From NCBI RefSeq assembly GCF_003075095.1, contig NZ_QCZF01000002.1, forward strand, positions 248,001 through 312,000: DNA of 64,000 bases, read 5' to 3'. Of the stretch, positions 11,242 to 23,862 are shown one piece after another (within the stretch, counting starts at the first letter, position 1; each line of letters begins with the position of its first letter). Below the pieces are notes generated by a model. The model was not told where the DNA came from and ran no database searches. It saw only the letters and a program-made list of their open reading frames with translations. Source of the stretch: Blastococcus litoris. Its GTDB lineage: Bacteria > Actinomycetota > Actinomycetes > Mycobacteriales > Geodermatophilaceae. The translations under genes and the position numbers were made by a program.

Positions 11242-12084
11242 ATGTGCCGCTGGATGGCCTACACCGGTTCGCCGCTGTCGATCGAGGACCTGCTCTACAC
11301 ACCCGAGAACTCCCTCGTCGTGCAGAGCCTGCACTCGCGGCTGGGCGTGGAGCCTACGAACGGCGACGGGTTCGGGATCGGCTGGTACGACGACAACGAG
11401 TTCCCGGGCCGGTACCGGAGCATCGAGCCGGCCTGGAACGACCGCAACCTCCGGGAGGTCTCCGCGCACGTGCGCTCGCGGCTCGTCCTCGCGCACGTGC
11501 GCGCCTCCACGGGCACGCCGGTCCAGCAGACCAACTGCCACCCGTTCCGGCACGGCGGGTGGCTCTGGGTGCACAACGGCGCGATCGCCGGGTTCCGGGA
11601 GTGCGAGCGGGAGCTGCTCCTGGCGGTCGACCCGGACCTCTTCCCGGACATCGCGGGGTCCACCGACTCGGAGCTCTTCTTCTACCTGGCGCTCACGTAC
11701 GGGCTGGTGGACGACCCGCCCGCCGCCGTCGCCCGGGCCGTGGGCCTGATCGAGGACGTCGGACGGCGGCACGGCGTGCAGTTCCCGCTGCAGATGACGG
11801 TGGGGACGACGGACGGCGAGACGCTCTGGGCGTTCCGGTACTCCAGCGAGGGGCGCTCCCGGTCGCTGTTCCACAGCACGGACATCTCGACGCTCCGGGC
11901 GCAGTACCCCGACAACCCCGTGCTGCACCGGTTGGCCGACGACGCCCGGGTGGTCGTCTCCGAACCGCTGGGCGGGCTGCGCGGCGCCTGGCGGGAGGTG
12001 CCCGAGGGCACCTGCGTCGTCGTGCGGGACGGCCGGGAGGAGCTGCGCCCCTTCGGCCCGGCCGTCCTCGAGCCGGTCGGGTGA
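11242..12084 (+). CDS. Class II glutamine amidotransferase (YafJ-like)
   Basis: A 280-aa protein with an N-terminal nucleophile hydrolase fold. The nucleophile Cys2 is exposed after removal of Met in MCRWMAYTGS. Further conserved segments are SLHSRLG, NGDGFGIGWYD, the RASTGTPVQQTNCHPF substrate loop and WVHNGAI. The family hydrolyses glutamine, or a related gamma-glutamyl amide, to supply or remove an amino group. No synthase domain is attached, so the partner substrate is unknown. The start resembles YafJ more than the ergothioneine enzyme EgtC, which typically begins MCRHLGY. It begins 10 bases after the ATPase stop, and its own stop overlaps the next gene as GTGA. Confidence 0.85.
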   Translation: MCRWMAYTGSPLSIEDLLYTPENSLVVQSLHSRLGVEPTNGDGFGIGWYDDNEFPGRYRSIEPAWNDRNLREVSAHVRSRLVLAHVRASTGTPVQQTNCHPFRHGGWLWVHNGAIAGFRECERELLLAVDPDLFPDIAGSTDSELFFYLALTYGLVDDPPAAVARAVGLIEDVGRRHGVQFPLQMTVGTTDGETLWAFRYSSEGRSRSLFHSTDISTLRAQYPDNPVLHRLADDARVVVSEPLGGLRGAWREVPEGTCVVVRDGREELRPFGPAVLEPVG

Positions 12085-13274
12085 CGAGCCCGCTGCCGCC
12101 GGCGGGCCCGGTCGCGGTGGCCGGGCCCGCCGCCGCCATCTGCCGGCCGCGGCCCGCCGCCGACCTGCTGGTGCCCGTGGCCGGTGACGCCGTCCCGACC
12201 ATCGGGGTGGAGGAGGAGTTCCTGCTCCTCTGGCCCGACGGCGGCACCGCCACCGTGGCCCCCGACGTCATCGCCGCGGTGGCGCCGGAGATCCGGGCCG
12301 CGGCGGAGTTCTCGCGGTGCCAGGTGGAGAGCTCGACGGGGATCTGCCGTGATCTCTCCTCGGTCGGCGTCGACCTGTCGGTGGCCCGGCGGGCGCTCGC
12401 GCAGGCGGCGGCCGACCGCGGGGCCCGCCTCGTCCCCGTCGGAGCACCCCCCGTGGACGAGCCGGGGGCGGCCGACCTCACCGACGACGACCGCTACCGC
12501 CGGCTGCTCACGACGGTCCCCGGGGTGACGGGGGAGGAGATCACCTGCGCGGGCCAGGTGCACGTCGCCGTCCCCTCCCGCGACGTGGGGGTGGCGGTCC
12601 TCGGCCGGCTGCGGCCGTGGCTGCCGCTCCTGCTGGCGCTGACCGGCAACAGCCCGGTCCGGCGGGGACGGGACACCGGCTGGAGCAGCACCCGCTTCCT
12701 GGTGCAGCGACGGTGGCCCTCGTTCCTGCCGCCGCCGCGATGCGCCGGCGCGGCCGAGTACGACGCCGGCGTGGACCGGCTGATGTCGTGCCGGGCGGCC
12801 CTCGACGAGCGCGGCGTCTACTACTGGGCGCGGCTCTCGCCGCGGTACCCGACGGTCGAGGTCCGCATCGCCGACGTCGGGCTGACCGTGGGGGAGGCGG
12901 TGCTGCTGGCCGGGCTGTGCCGGGCGGCTGTCATGACCGCGCTGGCCGACGAGCTGGCGGGGCGGCCGCTGCCGGACGTCCCCGAGCGGGTGCTGCTCGC
13001 CGCCGGGTATGCCGCCGCCCGCCGGGGGCTCGGCGCCGTGGTGCTGGACCCGGCGCACGGGGGCTGGGCGCCGGCGCGCGCCCTCCTTCCCGCCTGGCTG
13101 GACGTCCTCGGTCCGGCGCTGGAGGCCGCGGGGGACCGCTCCCTGGTCGAGACGCTGCTGGCCGCGCAGCTCTGCCGGGGGCCGGGCAGCGACCGGCAGC
13201 GGGCGCTGCTGCGCCGGGGACGCCGCGGCTTCGTCCAGGCGCTGGCCAACCTCGGGGCCGGCATCGACGCCTAG
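12081..13274 (+). CDS. YbdK-like carboxylate-amine ligase (GCS2 family)
   Basis: About 397 aa of the glutamate-cysteine ligase type 2 superfamily. A proline- and alanine-rich leader of some 40 residues precedes the family signature TIGVEEEFLLL. Later come CQVESSTGICRDL, the metal-binding region CAGQVHVAVPSRD and TVEVRIADVG near the C-terminus. Members activate a carboxylate with ATP and couple it to an amine. YbdK itself shows weak gamma-glutamylcysteine ligase activity, and the true substrates of actinobacterial copies are largely unknown. The GTG at 12081 overlaps the amidotransferase stop, so the two are likely made together and may act on one gamma-glutamyl compound. Confidence 0.82.
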   Translation: MTSPLPPAGPVAVAGPAAAICRPRPAADLLVPVAGDAVPTIGVEEEFLLLWPDGGTATVAPDVIAAVAPEIRAAAEFSRCQVESSTGICRDLSSVGVDLSVARRALAQAAADRGARLVPVGAPPVDEPGAADLTDDDRYRRLLTTVPGVTGEEITCAGQVHVAVPSRDVGVAVLGRLRPWLPLLLALTGNSPVRRGRDTGWSSTRFLVQRRWPSFLPPPRCAGAAEYDAGVDRLMSCRAALDERGVYYWARLSPRYPTVEVRIADVGLTVGEAVLLAGLCRAAVMTALADELAGRPLPDVPERVLLAAGYAAARRGLGAVVLDPAHGGWAPARALLPAWLDVLGPALEAAGDRSLVETLLAAQLCRGPGSDRQRALLRRGRRGFVQALANLGAGIDA

Positions 13275-13402
13275 AGGGGCGCCGACCGCGAGGAGGTCCG
13301 CCACTGCGTCGGGCTGACGCCGAAGCGCTGCCGGAACCAGCGCGAGAGGGCGCCGGGAGAGGCGAACCCGAGCAGCTCGGAGGCGTCGGTGAGCGATCTG
13401 TG
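13271..13402 (-). pseudogene. C-terminal remnant of an AraC-family regulator
   Basis: About 42 codons on the minus strand read HRSLTDASELLGFASPGALS, then RWFRQRFGVSPTQWR and a short tail. This is the second helix-turn-helix of an AraC regulator, and it resembles the end of the intact AraC gene at 22813-23862. Upstream of it (above about 13402) homology stops abruptly, so the ligand-binding domain and first HTH are missing. It meets the YeiH remnant at this point. The stop codon is intact. It is probably non-functional. Confidence 0.75.
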
Positions 13403-13735
13403 AGCGTCCGGAAGCAGATGGCCGGCGGGGAGACCACCGGACGCCGGCCGCCGGTCGTGCCCCTGTTCGTGCTCGGCTTCCTCGCCTGCGTCGCCCTCCG
13501 GAGCACCGGCGTGGTGCCGGCGGCGGCCCTCGGGGCGGTCTCCCAGGTGCAGGCCGCCGCGCTCGCCGCCGCCCTCTTCGGCATGGGCGCCTCGGTGCAG
13601 GTGCGGGCGCTGTGCCGCGGCACCGGGCGGCTGCTGGTGGTCTCGGCGGCGTCCACGCTCCTGGTCGTGGGGCTGGCGCTGGTCGCGTCGTGGTCCTGCT
13701 CTGAAGGGCGGGGTCACCCCGGCGGGATGACGTGA
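13400..13735 (+). pseudogene. C-terminal remnant of a YeiH-type putative sulfate exporter
   Basis: A plus-strand frame of about 111 codons reads RRPPVVPLFVLGFLACVALR, then STGVVPAAALGAVSQ and two hydrophobic helices. This matches the last three helices of YeiH/UPF0324 transporters, which are normally about 330-350 aa. The first two thirds are absent. The end (SCSEGRGHPGGMT) looks like frame run-on past the natural stop. A GTG at 13400 could start translation, but no good ribosome site is seen. Its missing N-terminus abuts the missing N-terminus of the AraC remnant. Confidence 0.7.
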
Positions 13736-13789: not shown

Positions 13790-14104
13790 GTGCTCGCTGC
13801 GGAGTCGGACGAGGGGCTGCCGCTCCTGGACCTGTTCTGGACGATGCTGCTGTTCTTCTACCTCGCCCTGGTCGTGTGGCTGGTCGTCCGCGCGCTGCGG
13901 GACCTCTTCGGCCGCGACGACGTCGGCACCGGCGCACGGGTGGGCTGGACGCTGTTCGTGCTGGCGCTGCCGCTCGTGGGCGCGTTGGCCTACCTGGTGT
14001 CGCACGAGCGGGACACGGGCGTCCCGGACCAGCTGGTGGAGGAGCGGGACCTGTGGCGGGTCGAGCGCAGCCAGCACAGCACGTACGTGCCGAACTTCCA
14101 CTGA
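13790..14104 (+). CDS. Small two-helix membrane protein, PLDc_N-like
   Basis: A protein of 104 aa with two transmembrane helices: FWTMLLFFYLALVVWLVVRA, and WTLFVLALPLVGALAYLV followed by SHERD. The arrangement of a short acidic start, two helices and a charged tail with RDTG and an aromatic end resembles phospholipase D N-terminal (PLDc_N) type membrane proteins, which lack the nuclease domain. The GTG start is chosen for the GGAGG six bases upstream. It is cytoplasmic-membrane located by prediction, with unknown function. Confidence 0.65.
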   Translation: MLAAESDEGLPLLDLFWTMLLFFYLALVVWLVVRALRDLFGRDDVGTGARVGWTLFVLALPLVGALAYLVSHERDTGVPDQLVEERDLWRVERSQHSTYVPNFH

Positions 14105-14137: not shown

Positions 14138-14629
14138 TCAGTGAACCAGCGACTTCAGCACGATCAGCCCCGCACCGATCAGCGCCACGAGCACTCCCTT
14201 GAGGAGCGCGCGGTGGGGGGCGGCGCCGGCGAAGCGGGCCGCCCAGAACCCGTAGAAGCCGATCAGCCCGAGGCCGCTCCACTTCGCGATGGAGAAGGCC
14301 CGCTCCACCTCCATCAGGCCGAGCGCGGAGAGCACGAAGAACAGCGCCGGGAAGGCGACCCCGAAGGCCACCGCGCCGGCGTCCTCGAGCATGTGGCGCA
14401 GCTGGTGGCGGGCGACCGGGCGTCGGGTGCTCGTCTCGAGCCCGACCACCTCGCTGTAGATCTCGGCGAGGCCGACCGCCAGGGCGGTCCCCGCCAGCCA
14501 CACGGCCATCACCCCGGGTGCCGGCGGGTGGCTCTCGATCGCCACCACCAGCGCCAGGCCGATGATCGAGCCGTAGACGACCCTGCCGACCTGCCGTGAC
14601 CCGAGGTGCTGTTCGAGGCTCGCGCGCAT
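14138..14629 (-). CDS. Four-helix membrane protein of unknown function
   Basis: A protein of 163 aa with about four or five hydrophobic helices. The second helical pair contains VWLAGTALAVGLAEIYSEVV, a Glu-containing segment faintly reminiscent of VIT1/CCC1-type iron or manganese transporters. The protein is shorter and the resemblance is weak, so no transport role is claimed. It lies between a convergent small membrane gene and the alpha/beta-hydrolase on the same strand. Confidence 0.6.
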   Translation of the reverse strand: MRASLEQHLGSRQVGRVVYGSIIGLALVVAIESHPPAPGVMAVWLAGTALAVGLAEIYSEVVGLETSTRRPVARHQLRHMLEDAGAVAFGVAFPALFFVLSALGLMEVERAFSIAKWSGLGLIGFYGFWAARFAGAAPHRALLKGVLVALIGAGLIVLKSLVH

Positions 14630-14692: not shown

Positions 14693-16660
14693 TCAGCCGA
14701 CCGCGCCGGGGACGACGGCGAACAGCCGCTCGCGGACGGTCTCCCGCAGCTGCAGCGTCTCCTCGATCCGGTGCAGCTGCTGCGGCGAGGCGGGCAGGTC
14801 GTAGACCCGGCTGAGGAAACGGGGGAGGTCCGCGCGGTAGTCGTGCTGGAACGCCCGGTACTCCCCGGCGGTCTGCGCGTTCTTCATGTCGACCAGGCTC
14901 TGGAAGAACGTGGTCAGCGGCCGCCAGCGCATGGCCGGAGGTATCCCGCGGGGGCTGCCGCCGTCGACCTGCTGGGGGAGCGAACGGCCGGGGCCGAGCC
15001 AGTCCGGCGAGTGCCAGAGGAGGTCGGGCCCGAACCTCGTCACGCCGTCGTTGTCGTGGCTGAGCAGGACGAACCGCGGGCGGGTGCCGCGCTGCTCCGT
15101 CACCGCGTCCAGCTGCTGGAGGTCGTTGACGACGGCCACGGCGTCGGGCTCCACGTCGAGCCGGTCGCCCCGGGTGACCTGGCGCATCCAGCCGCTGCCG
15201 TACGGCGTCCCGATCCAGAGCGCGCGGTCGATGCCCATCGCGTCCAGGCCGAGCGTGCCCCAGTGCAGGAAGACGTCCTGGCTCGTGTGCGCGCCCAGGC
15301 TCTCCCCGAACAGGACCACCCGCGGCCGCGGGCCGGGGCGGTCGCGGATCCGCTGGAGGACGCGCAGCCAGAGCAACCGGTTCTGCTCCCTGGCCGTGCG
15401 GATCATGGCGAGGGACAGCGGGGAGGGCCGGCGCGAGTACTGCAGGGTGACCGTGGCGACGTCGCCCAGCGCGAGGTACTGCAGCGCGGCCGTCGCCACG
15501 TAGTTGAGGTAGCCGGTGCCGGTCGGGGAGGCGAGGACGAGCAGCGACCTGTCCAGGGCGCCGGTGCGCTCGAGCTCGGCGAGGGCCAGGTCGACCCGCT
15601 CCCGGGGCGTCGCCCCGTTGTCCAGCCCCACGTAGACGGCGGCCGGCGTCGCCCGGGCGGGCGTGCCCATGACCGTCTCGACCGAGAGGTCCGGCACGGT
15701 GTCCGGGAGCCCCTCGGCGGGCCGGGGCCGCACGGTCGCGAGGACGTGCAGCCGGCCGTCGCGCCCCAATCCCGCCCAGGGCACCCGGCTTCCGGGAGCG
15801 CCGCTCACCGTCGGGAGGAGCCAGCGCTTCTCCTCGCCCGGTTCGATCACCGGCACCTCCACCGAGGTGGTCGACTCGATCCGCAGCATCGCCCGGTGCC
15901 ACACGGCGGAGGCGCCCGCCCCCAGAGCCGCCAGGAACGCGCCGTGGCCGGCCAGCCGCCACAGGGCCTGCGGCCCTGGCAGGACGGCGGTCAGCCGGCG
16001 GGCCAGCAGGTCGGCCACGGCGTGCTCGCCGTACGCGGCCCCGGCGAGGCCGCCCACCACCCCCGCCGCGATGCCGAACGAGGACAGCGGCGGTCCTGCT
16101 CCCTCGGGGGTGCCGGGGTCGTCGGCGACCTCCTGCCGGCGCAGCCGGTCGACGACGTAGGCCAGCCCGAGACCGACCGGGACGGCCAGGGGGACGGCGG
16201 CCAGGCGGCCTCCCAGCCCGAGCCGCGCGTCCAGGGTCCGGGTCCCCGCCTGCGCCGCCGCGAGCAGCGAGCCGCTCAGCCCGGCGACCCCGAGCCGCCA
16301 GGCCGCCTGGCGGACCAGGCCGCGCAGCGGGTCCTCCGACGTCGGCAGTGCCCGCAGCACCGCGAGCCCCAGCGGCACCGCCGCGAGGTCGACGGCGACC
16401 GCGGCCCGGCGCGCCGCGGCGGGTGGGGCGGCGGCGTCCAGGAGGGCGCGCGCCGCCGCCTCCAGCGCGTCCTGGGCACCGGCCGACAGCAGGTAGTGCA
16501 GCCCGGTCGCCAGGCCGGTGACCAGCCCTTGGTCCACCGCGCTACGCGGGGAGAGCGAGGGCGCGAAGGTGCCCGGTGCCGTGGCGGACGCGATCACCAG
16601 CCCCACGCCCGGTGCGCTCGACGCCGTGACCGCCCACGCGTGATCCCTCACCCGCTCCAT
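14693..16660 (-). CDS. Membrane-anchored alpha/beta-hydrolase (Abhydrolase_9 type)
   Basis: About 655 aa. The N-terminal half contains several hydrophobic segments and corresponds to the membrane domain paired with the Abhydrolase_9 family. The C-terminal half has the nucleophile elbow in VVLFGESLGAHTSQD. It also has AYVGLDNGATPRERVDLALAELER, which mirrors the neighbouring divergent paralogue's AYVGLASAEDVGDRAALAV. Substrate is unknown; a lipid or ester is plausible. I chose ATG 16660. An ATG at 16699 is possible, but the GGGAGG directly abuts it. The first 15 or so residues therefore remain uncertain. Confidence 0.75.
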   Translation of the reverse strand: MERVRDHAWAVTASSAPGVGLVIASATAPGTFAPSLSPRSAVDQGLVTGLATGLHYLLSAGAQDALEAAARALLDAAAPPAAARRAAVAVDLAAVPLGLAVLRALPTSEDPLRGLVRQAAWRLGVAGLSGSLLAAAQAGTRTLDARLGLGGRLAAVPLAVPVGLGLAYVVDRLRRQEVADDPGTPEGAGPPLSSFGIAAGVVGGLAGAAYGEHAVADLLARRLTAVLPGPQALWRLAGHGAFLAALGAGASAVWHRAMLRIESTTSVEVPVIEPGEEKRWLLPTVSGAPGSRVPWAGLGRDGRLHVLATVRPRPAEGLPDTVPDLSVETVMGTPARATPAAVYVGLDNGATPRERVDLALAELERTGALDRSLLVLASPTGTGYLNYVATAALQYLALGDVATVTLQYSRRPSPLSLAMIRTAREQNRLLWLRVLQRIRDRPGPRPRVVLFGESLGAHTSQDVFLHWGTLGLDAMGIDRALWIGTPYGSGWMRQVTRGDRLDVEPDAVAVVNDLQQLDAVTEQRGTRPRFVLLSHDNDGVTRFGPDLLWHSPDWLGPGRSLPQQVDGGSPRGIPPAMRWRPLTTFFQSLVDMKNAQTAGEYRAFQHDYRADLPRFLSRVYDLPASPQQLHRIEETLQLRETVRERLFAVVPGAVG

Positions 16661-16769
16661 GACCCCGATGGTGGCGCCGGAAGGGTCGGTGCAGTTCATC
16701 CTCCCGGTGTGAGTCCTGGGGAGCGGTCGTCCCCCTAGCGTCGGAGCCGCCGGAGGAGCGGAGGCGGGC
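16661..16769. promoter_or_regulatory. Divergent control region between two hydrolase paralogues
   Basis: These 109 bases separate the starts of two oppositely oriented genes of one family. Both promoters must lie here or within the coding starts. I see no convincing -10/-35 pair or operator repeat. GGAGGAGCGGAGG precedes the plus-strand ATG. Confidence 0.4.
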
Positions 16770-18494
16770 ATGACGGCTGAGCCGACCACGAGGCCTCCCC
16801 GGGAGGACGTCGCGACAGTGCGGCCGGAGGCCTCCGCGGGGGCCGGGGACGTCCCTCCCCGCGGGCGGTGGCTCCGGCTGCCGCATTACACCTGGAGCGG
16901 CACCCTGGGCGCGCTGCTCTTCGGAGGCGCGTCCCTCATGCCGTCCCTGCTGCCGCGTGGGTGGGTCCTGCAGGGGCTGATCGCCGGCCTCACCGCGGCC
17001 ATCGGGTACGGCGTCGGCGTGGCCGTGGCGTGGTTCGTCGCGGAGGTCACCGAGAGCCGCATGTCGGCGGGGTTCCGCCGGCGCGCCTGGCAGGTCCTCG
17101 CCGTGGCAGGACCGATCTTCGCCGTCGTCATGCTGGTGTTCGGCGCGATCTGGCAGCGGCGGATCCACGAGCTCATGGGCCTCGACGCCCCGGCGGGCTG
17201 GTCCTCGATCGGCATCGTCGTCCTGGCGGTGGTGGTGTTCGCGCTGTTCGTGGGGATCGGCCGCGGCGTGCGGTTCCTCGGGCGCTGGTTCGTCCGCCTC
17301 CTCGGCCGGTTCCTGCCGCGGCGGGTCGCCCGGCCGCTCGGCGTCCTCGCGGTGACGGTGCTGGTCGTCTTCCTGCTCAACGGGGTGCTCTTCCAGGGTC
17401 TGGTGAACGCGATGAACTCGGCGTTCAGCGTCAAGGACGACGGCACGGAGGAGGGGGCGGTCGAGCCCACCGCTCCCGAGCGGTCGGGCAGCCCGGACTC
17501 CCTGGTGCCCTGGGACGACCTCGGCCTGCAGGGGCGCAACTTCGTCGGGCTGGGCCCGACGCCGGAGGACCTGGAGGAGTTCTCCGGCGGGCCGGCGGAG
17601 CAACCGGTCCGCGCCTACGTCGGCCTGGCCAGCGCCGAGGACGTCGGGGACCGGGCGGCCCTGGCCGTCCGCGAGCTCGAGAGGGCGGGCGGCTTCGAGC
17701 GCTCGGTGCTCGTCGTCGTGACGACGACGGGCACCGGTTGGGTGGACCCGGCGGCCAGCGACTCGCTCGAGTACGAGTTCAACGGCGACACCGCGATGGT
17801 CGCCATGCAGTACTCCTACCTGCCCAGCTGGCTGTCGTTCCTGGTGGACCAGGTCAAGGCGCGCGATGCCGGCCGCGCGCTGTTCGACGCGGTGTACGGC
17901 ACGTGGGCGCAGCTGCCACCCGACGACCGACCCCGGCTCTACGTGTTCGGGGAGAGCCTGGGCACGTTCGGCGGCGAGGCGGCGTTCAGCGGGCTGGCCG
18001 ACATCCAGAACCGCACCGACGGCGTGCTGTGGGCCGGGCCGCCGAACTTCAACGCCCTGTGGCGGGACATCGTGGCCGATCGCGAGGAGGGCACGCCGGA
18101 GTGGCTGCCGGTCGTGGACGAGGGGCGCACCGTCCGGTTCGCCGACGCCGCCCCCGACCTGGGCCGGCCGGCCGGCCCCTGGGGGGAGCCGCGGCTGGTC
18201 TACCTGCAGAACGCGTCCGACCCGATCGTCTGGTGGTCGCCGCAGCTCATCCTGGGCCGCCCCGACTGGCTCGAGGGGGACCGCGGCCCCGACGTGTCGC
18301 CCGGCATGGTCTGGCTGCCGCTCGTGACCTTCTGGCAGGTCACCGCCGACATGGCCTTCTCGACCGGCGTGCCCGACGGGCACGGGCACAAGTACCAGGC
18401 CGACTACGTGGACGGGTGGGCCCAGGTCGCCCAGCCGCCCGGGTGGACCGACGCCGACACCGAGCGGCTGCGGTCGCTGGTCAGCGACGGCTGA
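16770..18494 (+). CDS. Membrane-anchored alpha/beta-hydrolase (Abhydrolase_9 type), paralogue
   Basis: A protein of 574 aa. A proline-rich cytoplasmic start is followed by about five hydrophobic helices (roughly residues 45-220), then a linker and a soluble hydrolase domain. The nucleophile elbow is LYVFGESLGTFGGEA at about residue 395. The domain also has VVVTTTGTGWVDP and WAGPPNFN, all in the same order as in the divergent neighbour. The family is common in actinobacteria and its substrate is unknown. The ATG lies eight bases after GGAGG. The CPBP gene follows 15 bases after the stop. Confidence 0.8.
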   Translation: MTAEPTTRPPREDVATVRPEASAGAGDVPPRGRWLRLPHYTWSGTLGALLFGGASLMPSLLPRGWVLQGLIAGLTAAIGYGVGVAVAWFVAEVTESRMSAGFRRRAWQVLAVAGPIFAVVMLVFGAIWQRRIHELMGLDAPAGWSSIGIVVLAVVVFALFVGIGRGVRFLGRWFVRLLGRFLPRRVARPLGVLAVTVLVVFLLNGVLFQGLVNAMNSAFSVKDDGTEEGAVEPTAPERSGSPDSLVPWDDLGLQGRNFVGLGPTPEDLEEFSGGPAEQPVRAYVGLASAEDVGDRAALAVRELERAGGFERSVLVVVTTTGTGWVDPAASDSLEYEFNGDTAMVAMQYSYLPSWLSFLVDQVKARDAGRALFDAVYGTWAQLPPDDRPRLYVFGESLGTFGGEAAFSGLADIQNRTDGVLWAGPPNFNALWRDIVADREEGTPEWLPVVDEGRTVRFADAAPDLGRPAGPWGEPRLVYLQNASDPIVWWSPQLILGRPDWLEGDRGPDVSPGMVWLPLVTFWQVTADMAFSTGVPDGHGHKYQADYVDGWAQVAQPPGWTDADTERLRSLVSDG

Positions 18495-22812: not shown

Positions 22813-23862
22813 TCACCCCCCGGGGACGGTCGGCAGCGTGGTGTCGCGCGACCGGTCGGGTGCGGCGAGGGCGGTGCGCCGCCAGTCGGCCGCGGTCACG
22901 CCGAAGTGCTGGCGGAACCAGCGGGAGAAGGCGCTCGGGGCGTCGAAGCCCAGGAGCATCGCCACCTCGGTCAGGGAGTAGCGCTCCGCCGCCAGGTAGC
23001 GCTCGGCCTCACGGGCGCGGGTGGCGTGCACGATCGCCGAGAAGCGCGTCCCCTCACCGGCGAGCAGGCGCTGCAGCGCCCGCGGCCGGGCGCCGAGGTA
23101 CTGCGCGACGTCGGTCAGCGAGCAGCGGCCGAGCGGCAGCAGCACCTCGACGACCTCGCCGACCTGCCCGGCCGCGGTCGGCGCCGCGGTGTCGACGATC
23201 GCGCGCAGGAACTCGTGGGTGTAGCGGCGGAGGGAAGGGTCGGCGATGACCACCGGGACGTCGAGGTCCCGGCTGGGCAGCACCAGGCCGGTGAAGTCCC
23301 CGCCGAAGCGCAGACCGAGGCCGAAGACGGACCGGTAGGGAGCCACGTCTGCCGGCGCCGGCCGCGCGAAGGTGGGCGTCAGCGGCTGCCACCCGTCACC
23401 GACCAGCGCGCGCACGATGCCGACCAGCGCGCCCATCACCAGGTCGATCGACTGGGTGCTGGGCACGGGCTCCTCGAACTCGAGCCAGACCTCGATCGAG
23501 GCCAGCTCGCCGGCCTCCCGGAGACGAAGGTGCAGCGCTTCGTTGTAGGCCCGCTCGTGGCGGACGAGGAGCTGCACCGCGCTGCGCAGGTCGGGCTCGT
23601 CGCGGAGGACGACGCTGAGGGGTCCGAGCGCCCCGAGCGGTCGCAACGCCGCGAGTCGCAGGCCGAAGTCGGGGCACGAGGACTGCTCCGCGGACCGTTC
23701 GAGCAGCCGTGCGACGCGGGCGGCGAGCACCCACCTGTCCGGGACGGCGAGGTCGCCGAGGTCCAGGCCCGCTTCGTGCAGCAGGGCCGCGGGATCGAGA
23801 CCCAGCGACCGCGCCAGGCCGACGAACCCGGTCAGCGCGGCGGTCCGGACGCGAGGTCGCAC
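22813..23862 (-). CDS. AraC-family transcriptional regulator
   Basis: A protein of 349 aa. An N-terminal ligand-binding region of the Arabinose_bd type (TAALTGFVGLARSLGLDPAA to about residue 200) precedes a C-terminal double HTH. The first HTH is CSLTDVAQYLGARPRALQRL and the second SLTEVAMLLGFDAPSAFSRW, followed by FRQHFGV. Such regulators respond to a small molecule and usually control an adjacent gene. The GTG start follows AGGAGGGACCTC. It is divergent from the LuxR-HTH gene and shares a 148-base control region with it. Its effector is unknown. Confidence 0.85.
   Translation of the reverse strand: MRPRVRTAALTGFVGLARSLGLDPAALLHEAGLDLGDLAVPDRWVLAARVARLLERSAEQSSCPDFGLRLAALRPLGALGPLSVVLRDEPDLRSAVQLLVRHERAYNEALHLRLREAGELASIEVWLEFEEPVPSTQSIDLVMGALVGIVRALVGDGWQPLTPTFARPAPADVAPYRSVFGLGLRFGGDFTGLVLPSRDLDVPVVIADPSLRRYTHEFLRAIVDTAAPTAAGQVGEVVEVLLPLGRCSLTDVAQYLGARPRALQRLLAGEGTRFSAIVHATRAREAERYLAAERYSLTEVAMLLGFDAPSAFSRWFRQHFGVTAADWRRTALAAPDRSRDTTLPTVPGG

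Follow-up and report, generated by a model that had tools for sequence, protein, structure and literature searches.

Pseudogene fusions generated by deletion are a general phenomenon in bacterial genomes, and end-joining of the Ku type is one of the routes by which deletions are made. Operons for the catabolism of organosulfonates are recognized by a TauD-type dioxygenase encoded together with a sulfite/sulfate exporter. The YeiH family (TIGR00698/PF03601) is one of putative sulfate exporters, and the members of the BKACE family (PF05853) are beta-keto acid cleavage enzymes. Here we describe a site in the genome of Blastococcus litoris at which the ends of an AraC-type regulator gene and of a yeiH-type gene are joined. 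The window, which is the whole stretch of 64,000 nucleotides of contig NZ_QCZF01000002.1 that was analysed, carries at this site what is very probably the scar of an operon-sized deletion of about 7 kb, made by one break-and-join. Positions are those of the window unless another contig or stretch is named.

Two gene remnants and their junction

The last 41 codons and the stop codon of an AraC-type regulator lie on the reverse strand at 13271..13396. The end of the AraC helix-turn-helix domain is matched at 13271-13420 (-) by Pfam family PF12833 (E 5.2e-9, profile positions 39-79 of 80), and PF00165 also matches this piece (E 1.1e-8). In an alignment with the 337-residue regulator of the related genome G004, the remnant corresponds to residues 296-331 with 27 of 36 positions identical; about 295 N-terminal codons and the promoter have been lost. 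On the forward strand, 13400..13681 holds what is left of a YeiH-type transporter gene, approximately its last 94 codons, with the 3' end out of frame. The end of the Cons_hypoth698/YeiH profile is matched at 13400-13732 (+) (PF03601, E 1.8e-8, positions 231-303 of 304), and TIGR00698 gives a weak match (E 7.8e-4; 18.8 bits, where the cut-off is 232.6; model positions 240-326 of 335). The alignment of this piece with residues 253-348 of the 356-residue YeiH of G004 begins at the first codon of the remnant (13400), and 57-66 residues over 94-100 aligned columns are identical in comparisons with five copies of this gene from the clusters of four genomes. Both pieces are thus C-terminal parts of real gene families, on opposite strands and facing outward, which is beyond chance. 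An earlier note on this DNA had proposed that both remnants keep their C-termini without the N-termini and that they meet at about 13400, and both observations are confirmed.

The junction is sharp. Homology to the AraC gene stops at 13396 and homology to yeiH starts at 13400, leaving three bases (13397..13399) that nucleotide and protein alignments assign to neither parent gene; as the remnants and the intact loci are about 57-75% identical in protein, the breakpoints could be a few bases off. Neither kind of alignment revealed homologous sequence between the breakpoints or any trace of the five genes that lie there in relatives. The motif GTGAGCG occurs once on each side of the junction on the forward strand, at 13389-13395 and 13400-13406 (together 13389..13406), and this pair may be due to chance, 1.4% of the points of the window falling between two 7-base copies of such spacing (offset 7-15). 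These 7 bases are also the longest direct repeat at the junction in a search for 7-mers at offsets 4-19. Both copies have been kept, and simple recombination between them is consequently not the explanation.

Homology to yeiH runs to about 13681, and the remainder of the open reading frame, up to the stop codon at 13735, is out of register with the relatives. Near this 3' end the nucleotide alignment shows 5 bases in the window that are absent from the five cluster copies. Such a frame-changing length difference fits a decaying pseudogene whose function would have been lost once the promoter and the front of the gene had gone.

To the left of the junction, an EgtC-like class II glutamine amidotransferase gene (11242..12084, +; TIGR03442, E 1e-50, 172.4 bits, below the cut-off of 218.65) is followed by a gene for a protein of glutamate-cysteine ligase family 2 (GCS2; 12081..13274, +; PF04107, E 1.1e-37), the stop codon of which overlaps that of the AraC remnant. 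To the right lie genes for a small PLDc_N-type protein (13790..14104, +; PF13396, E 8.2e-8), a 163-residue protein with no Pfam family above cut-off (14138..14629, -) and an Abhydrolase_9 family protein (14693..16789, -; PF10081, E 1.5e-62).

The intact cluster in related genomes

The clearest counterpart of the locus is found in another genus of the same family, in genome G107 (stretch L062, which begins inside a P-type ATPase gene). The order there is ATPase, EgtC, GCS2, AraC (-), quinone oxidoreductase (qor), tauD, BKACE, MFS transporter, hydrolase, yeiH and PLDc_N, then the 163-residue protein (-) and two Abhydrolase_9 proteins, which is the order of the window from approximately 10 to 18.5 kb, on both sides, with the cluster in place. 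The protein identities to the window are 80% for EgtC, 65% for GCS2, which directly precedes the AraC gene, 45% for PLDc_N after yeiH, 77% for the 163-residue protein and 73% for Abhydrolase_9. A scan of named genomes with an alignment of GCS2 retained 80 of 207 loci, none of them more than 47% identical.

When 16 genomes of the genus, that of B. litoris included, were searched at the DNA level, most gave short scattered matches, and a clear split match was obtained in one, G004, its two parts lying 7.2 kb apart. In this genome (L034) the GCS2 gene (+; 49% identical) again directly precedes AraC (-), which is followed by the same six genes (+), the 163-residue protein (-; 79%) and Abhydrolase_9 (75%, order kept). 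By Pfam the cluster proteins of G004 are Arabinose_bd + HTH_18, a zinc-type dehydrogenase (an NADPH:quinone reductase by NCBIfam, just under cut-off), TauD, BKACE, MFS_1, Ser_hydrolase and Cons_hypoth698/YeiH. The G004 locus is less than perfectly collinear with the window: neither EgtC nor PLDc_N was matched next to the cluster in L034, the GCS2 protein is just 49% identical, and the counterpart of the window sequence past 16.7 kb is found on the G004 contig some 30 kb farther on. An EgtC-like gene of G004 lies at C8:126074-126902 (L176/L181), where the match falls into two abutting parts (residues 1-177 and 177-275), as though the gene were broken. Intact versions of the locus thus occur with the neighbours seen in the window on both sides in G107 and, except for EgtC and PLDc_N, in G004.

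BKACE was detected at E 1e-20 in four of 112 genomes of the family (G004, G053, G058 and G107). In G058 the whole cluster lies on a single contig, and the 18 kb analysed around it (L061) contain no match to EgtC or GCS2. In G053 the cluster is split over contig ends inside BKACE, and the part on contig C8 follows EgtC and GCS2. Two side observations concern these genomes. The BKACE proteins of G004 (L034:9350-10438) and G058 are 96% identical and the other six cluster genes 67-86%, which indicates either unusually strong conservation or recent exchange. In G053 the BKACE gene is cut at four contig ends (both ends of C24 and one end each of C8 and C15; L057-L060); this pattern suggests two copies of the cassette in the genome, as if assembly had halted at an exactly repeated middle part of BKACE.

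A further genome, G109, has EgtC and GCS2 side by side with no regulator or cluster match within 12 kb (L185), and the cluster is therefore not a fixed part of this locus in the family. Among the 15 other members of the genus searched, five of which are 76-88% complete, G004 was the only one with BKACE, so that it is the remnants, together with G004 and G107, that argue for the presence of the cluster in the direct ancestor.

The cassette on plasmids

The core of the lost cluster also occurs on plasmids of actinomycetes and proteobacteria. With the G004 BKACE as query, 24 plasmid records were retrieved at E 1e-40, of which 15 were listed; stretches from 14 of these were examined, a second Cupriavidus metallidurans (H8) being left out. 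The genes qor, tauD and BKACE were found together in nine of the 14 loci (L191, L192, L194-L199 and L203), from Rhodococcus gordoniae, Tsukamurella, Azoarcus, Novosphingobium, two Streptomyces, Embleya, Paraburkholderia and Caballeronia grimmiae. In the other five (L193, L200, L201, L202 and L204) the set was incomplete within 8 kb. The full set is carried by plasmid p2 of Novosphingobium sp. ES2-1, where AraC (-) is followed by qor, tauD, BKACE, a hydrolase, an MFS transporter and a protein of the sulfate exporter family. On pDND3A of R. gordoniae the order is AraC (-), qor, tauD, BKACE, hydrolase, CoA ligase and YeiH. Five genes separate AraC from yeiH on both plasmids. A yeiH gene was seen in three of the 14 loci, in one of them on the opposite strand. 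At the level of the class, a search for this yeiH at E 1e-80 matched 0 of 394 genomes, a set that contained no genome known to match, and the result therefore carries no weight.

Search for the lost genes in the own genome

No BKACE was found elsewhere in the B. litoris genome at E 1e-20, and the TauD-type protein of G004 as query retrieved nothing at E 1e-5 in a search run without a positive control. The 6.3-kb interior of the G004 cluster, used as a DNA query, gave 10 matches in this genome. Two of them are genes on C7, one for an MFS transporter (C7:104484, 72%) and one for YeiH (C7:24750, 71%); the other eight are short and span 27-79 query bases. For qor, the MFS transporter and the hydrolase this DNA search was the one made, and diverged copies could be missed by it.

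The MFS gene at C7:104484 adjoins a regulator paralog at C7:103400. In this region (L190:4400-6671, corresponding to C7:103400-105671) a regulator of the same type is directly followed by the MFS gene, whose product shares 62% identity with the MFS transporter of the lost cluster. The window itself contains, at 22867-23862 (-), a full-length AraC-type regulator (Arabinose_bd + HTH_18) that is 55% identical to the regulator of the G004 locus. Regulators 52-62% identical to it share contigs with an Abhydrolase_9 gene in G009, G053, G058 and G109.

The regulator paralog at 22867-23862 and the yeiH paralog on C7 were considered as sources of the remnants and rejected. The AraC remnant scores 151, 147, 135 and 136 against the cluster regulators of G004, G107, G058 and G053, respectively, and 113 against the paralog at 22867, with which it shares 20 of 36 residues compared with the 27 of 36 shared with G004; its adjacency to GCS2 also favours the regulator of the locus. 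For the yeiH remnant, the paralog on C7 gives a score of 183 (40 of 81 identical) compared with 282-326 for the five cluster copies.

Size and nature of the loss

The anchors on the two sides of the junction are 6,920 bases apart in G107, 7,193 in G004 and 11 in the window, from which 6,909 bp (relative to G107) or 7,182 bp (relative to G004) are missing. Altogether about 6.9-7.2 kb appears to have been lost, comprising the front parts of the regulator gene and of yeiH together with the divergent promoter region and the five complete genes between them. In the ancestor, an AraC-type regulator gene (-) between the GCS2 and PLDc_N genes would have been divergent from what was presumably a single six-gene operon (+), in the order quinone oxidoreductase, TauD/TfdA-type dioxygenase, BKACE, MFS transporter, serine hydrolase and yeiH. 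One break-and-join would then have run from inside the helix-turn-helix domain of the regulator to inside the last third of yeiH. We infer that this was a single event, and that it proceeded by end-joining rather than by recombination between repeats, since both GTGAGCG copies have been kept and Ku, which makes end-joining possible, is encoded in the same genome. The two remnants would do nothing today.

The earlier note had proposed one deletion in a divergent regulator-transporter pair, and its mechanism was right: the C-terminal ends of two outward-facing genes have been joined, with removal of the divergent promoter region and of both fronts. The size that it implied and the notion of a neighbouring pair were wrong. 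The intact arrangement for which it suggested looking in relatives does exist, at this locus in G107 and among largely the same adjoining genes in G004, with five genes between regulator and transporter. AraC and yeiH are in fact never neighbours in those three clusters of the family that lie on a single contig (G004, G058 and G107), a finding that the note would have counted against a deletion. It does not overturn one, since regulator and transporter form the outer ends of a single cluster.

The geometry of the remnants, taken alone, would fit equally well a small deletion in a true neighbour pair with a shared promoter, in which fronts of an estimated 1.8 kb or so were lost and the operon was inserted later in the relatives. 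The regulator-cassette-yeiH order is also not universal, yeiH belonging to the cassette in only three of the 14 plasmid loci. We nevertheless regard this as very unlikely, since five genes separate regulator and yeiH in the three single-contig clusters and also in the two of the 14 plasmid loci in which both are seen (L191 and L195), and in the seven of 14 with a regulator match the nearest cassette gene on the operon side is qor or BKACE. It is somewhat less difficult to imagine that the cluster was reduced stepwise to its two ends by successive deletions or gradual erosion. Nested deletions ending at the junction would give the same scar, and the further length change near the 3' end of the yeiH remnant indicates that change continued after, or had begun before, the main loss. 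Such a course still seems improbable, as no leftover of an inner gene is present and one homology stops and the other starts within 3 bases.

A misjoin of two pieces by the assembler deserves mention for a draft of 87 contigs, and yet it is hardly credible here: the junction is situated at about 261 kb on a contig of 541 kb, a single locus of G107 matches the gene order of both flanks, BKACE and TauD-type genes were not found at the thresholds given above elsewhere in an assembly rated 99.96% complete, and the search for 7-mers at offsets 4-19 showed no direct repeat longer than 7 bases at the junction. Equally hard to accept is a useful fusion, in which the GTG at 13400 would start a new short gene for a protein of 111 residues. 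This frame has a possible start codon, with GGTGAG six bases ahead of it, and stays open to 13735; against this, only the last third of the transporter has been kept, its end is out of register with the relatives, and the junction is found in no second genome among the 16 of the genus, its own included. The junction is known from one genome of the species. The loss of the whole cluster by one deletion of about 7 kb thus accounts best for the locus, and it is an ordinary gene loss, made unusually clear by a relative that keeps the complete set at the same place.

Comparison with known systems

The combination of an oxygenase, a beta-keto acid cleavage enzyme, a transporter and an occasional YeiH exporter suggests that the lost cluster served in the breakdown of a small organic acid, which may have been a sulfonate. 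PF02668 and PF03601 are both present in the G004 cluster. However, the TauD-type protein of G004 is below the cut-off of the taurine dioxygenase model (216.6 against 313), the full-length G004 YeiH is below that of TIGR00698 (136.0 against 232.6 bits), and yeiH is often missing from the cassette, all of which makes a sulfonate less likely. Matches to the YeiH family of putative sulfate exporters are found for the remnant and for its full-length relative, and as even the full-length protein is below cut-off, sulfate is no more than a putative substrate.

As in BKACE clusters, BKACE is found in the relatives' cluster with an MFS transporter and an AraC-type regulator. The set of qor, TauD-type dioxygenase, BKACE, MFS transporter and serine hydrolase differs from them in that no description of it was recognizable in the titles and abstract openings covered by a limited literature search. 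Tentatively, one may speculate that the scar is the trace of a mobile catabolic cassette not yet described, composed of an AraC-type regulator, qor, a TauD-type dioxygenase, BKACE, an MFS transporter, a serine hydrolase and an optional yeiH, in which an oxygenase step would be joined to beta-keto acid cleavage, and which would range from actinomycetes to proteobacteria and have been lost here by one end-joining deletion. The conservation of the cassette raises the question of the substrate on which the TauD-type oxygenase and BKACE, sometimes with YeiH, act together.

The site shares with other pseudogene fusions generated by deletion its two truncated genes, a single breakpoint, the absence of the interior and flanks collinear with a relative. 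It differs from them in that each of its breakpoints lies within a gene at one end of the same cluster, and the scar thereby names the operon that was lost. Scars that keep both gene ends allow the lost gene set and the manner of its loss to be named exactly; here it was a whole, apparently mobile and probably catabolic operon, most likely lost in one step.
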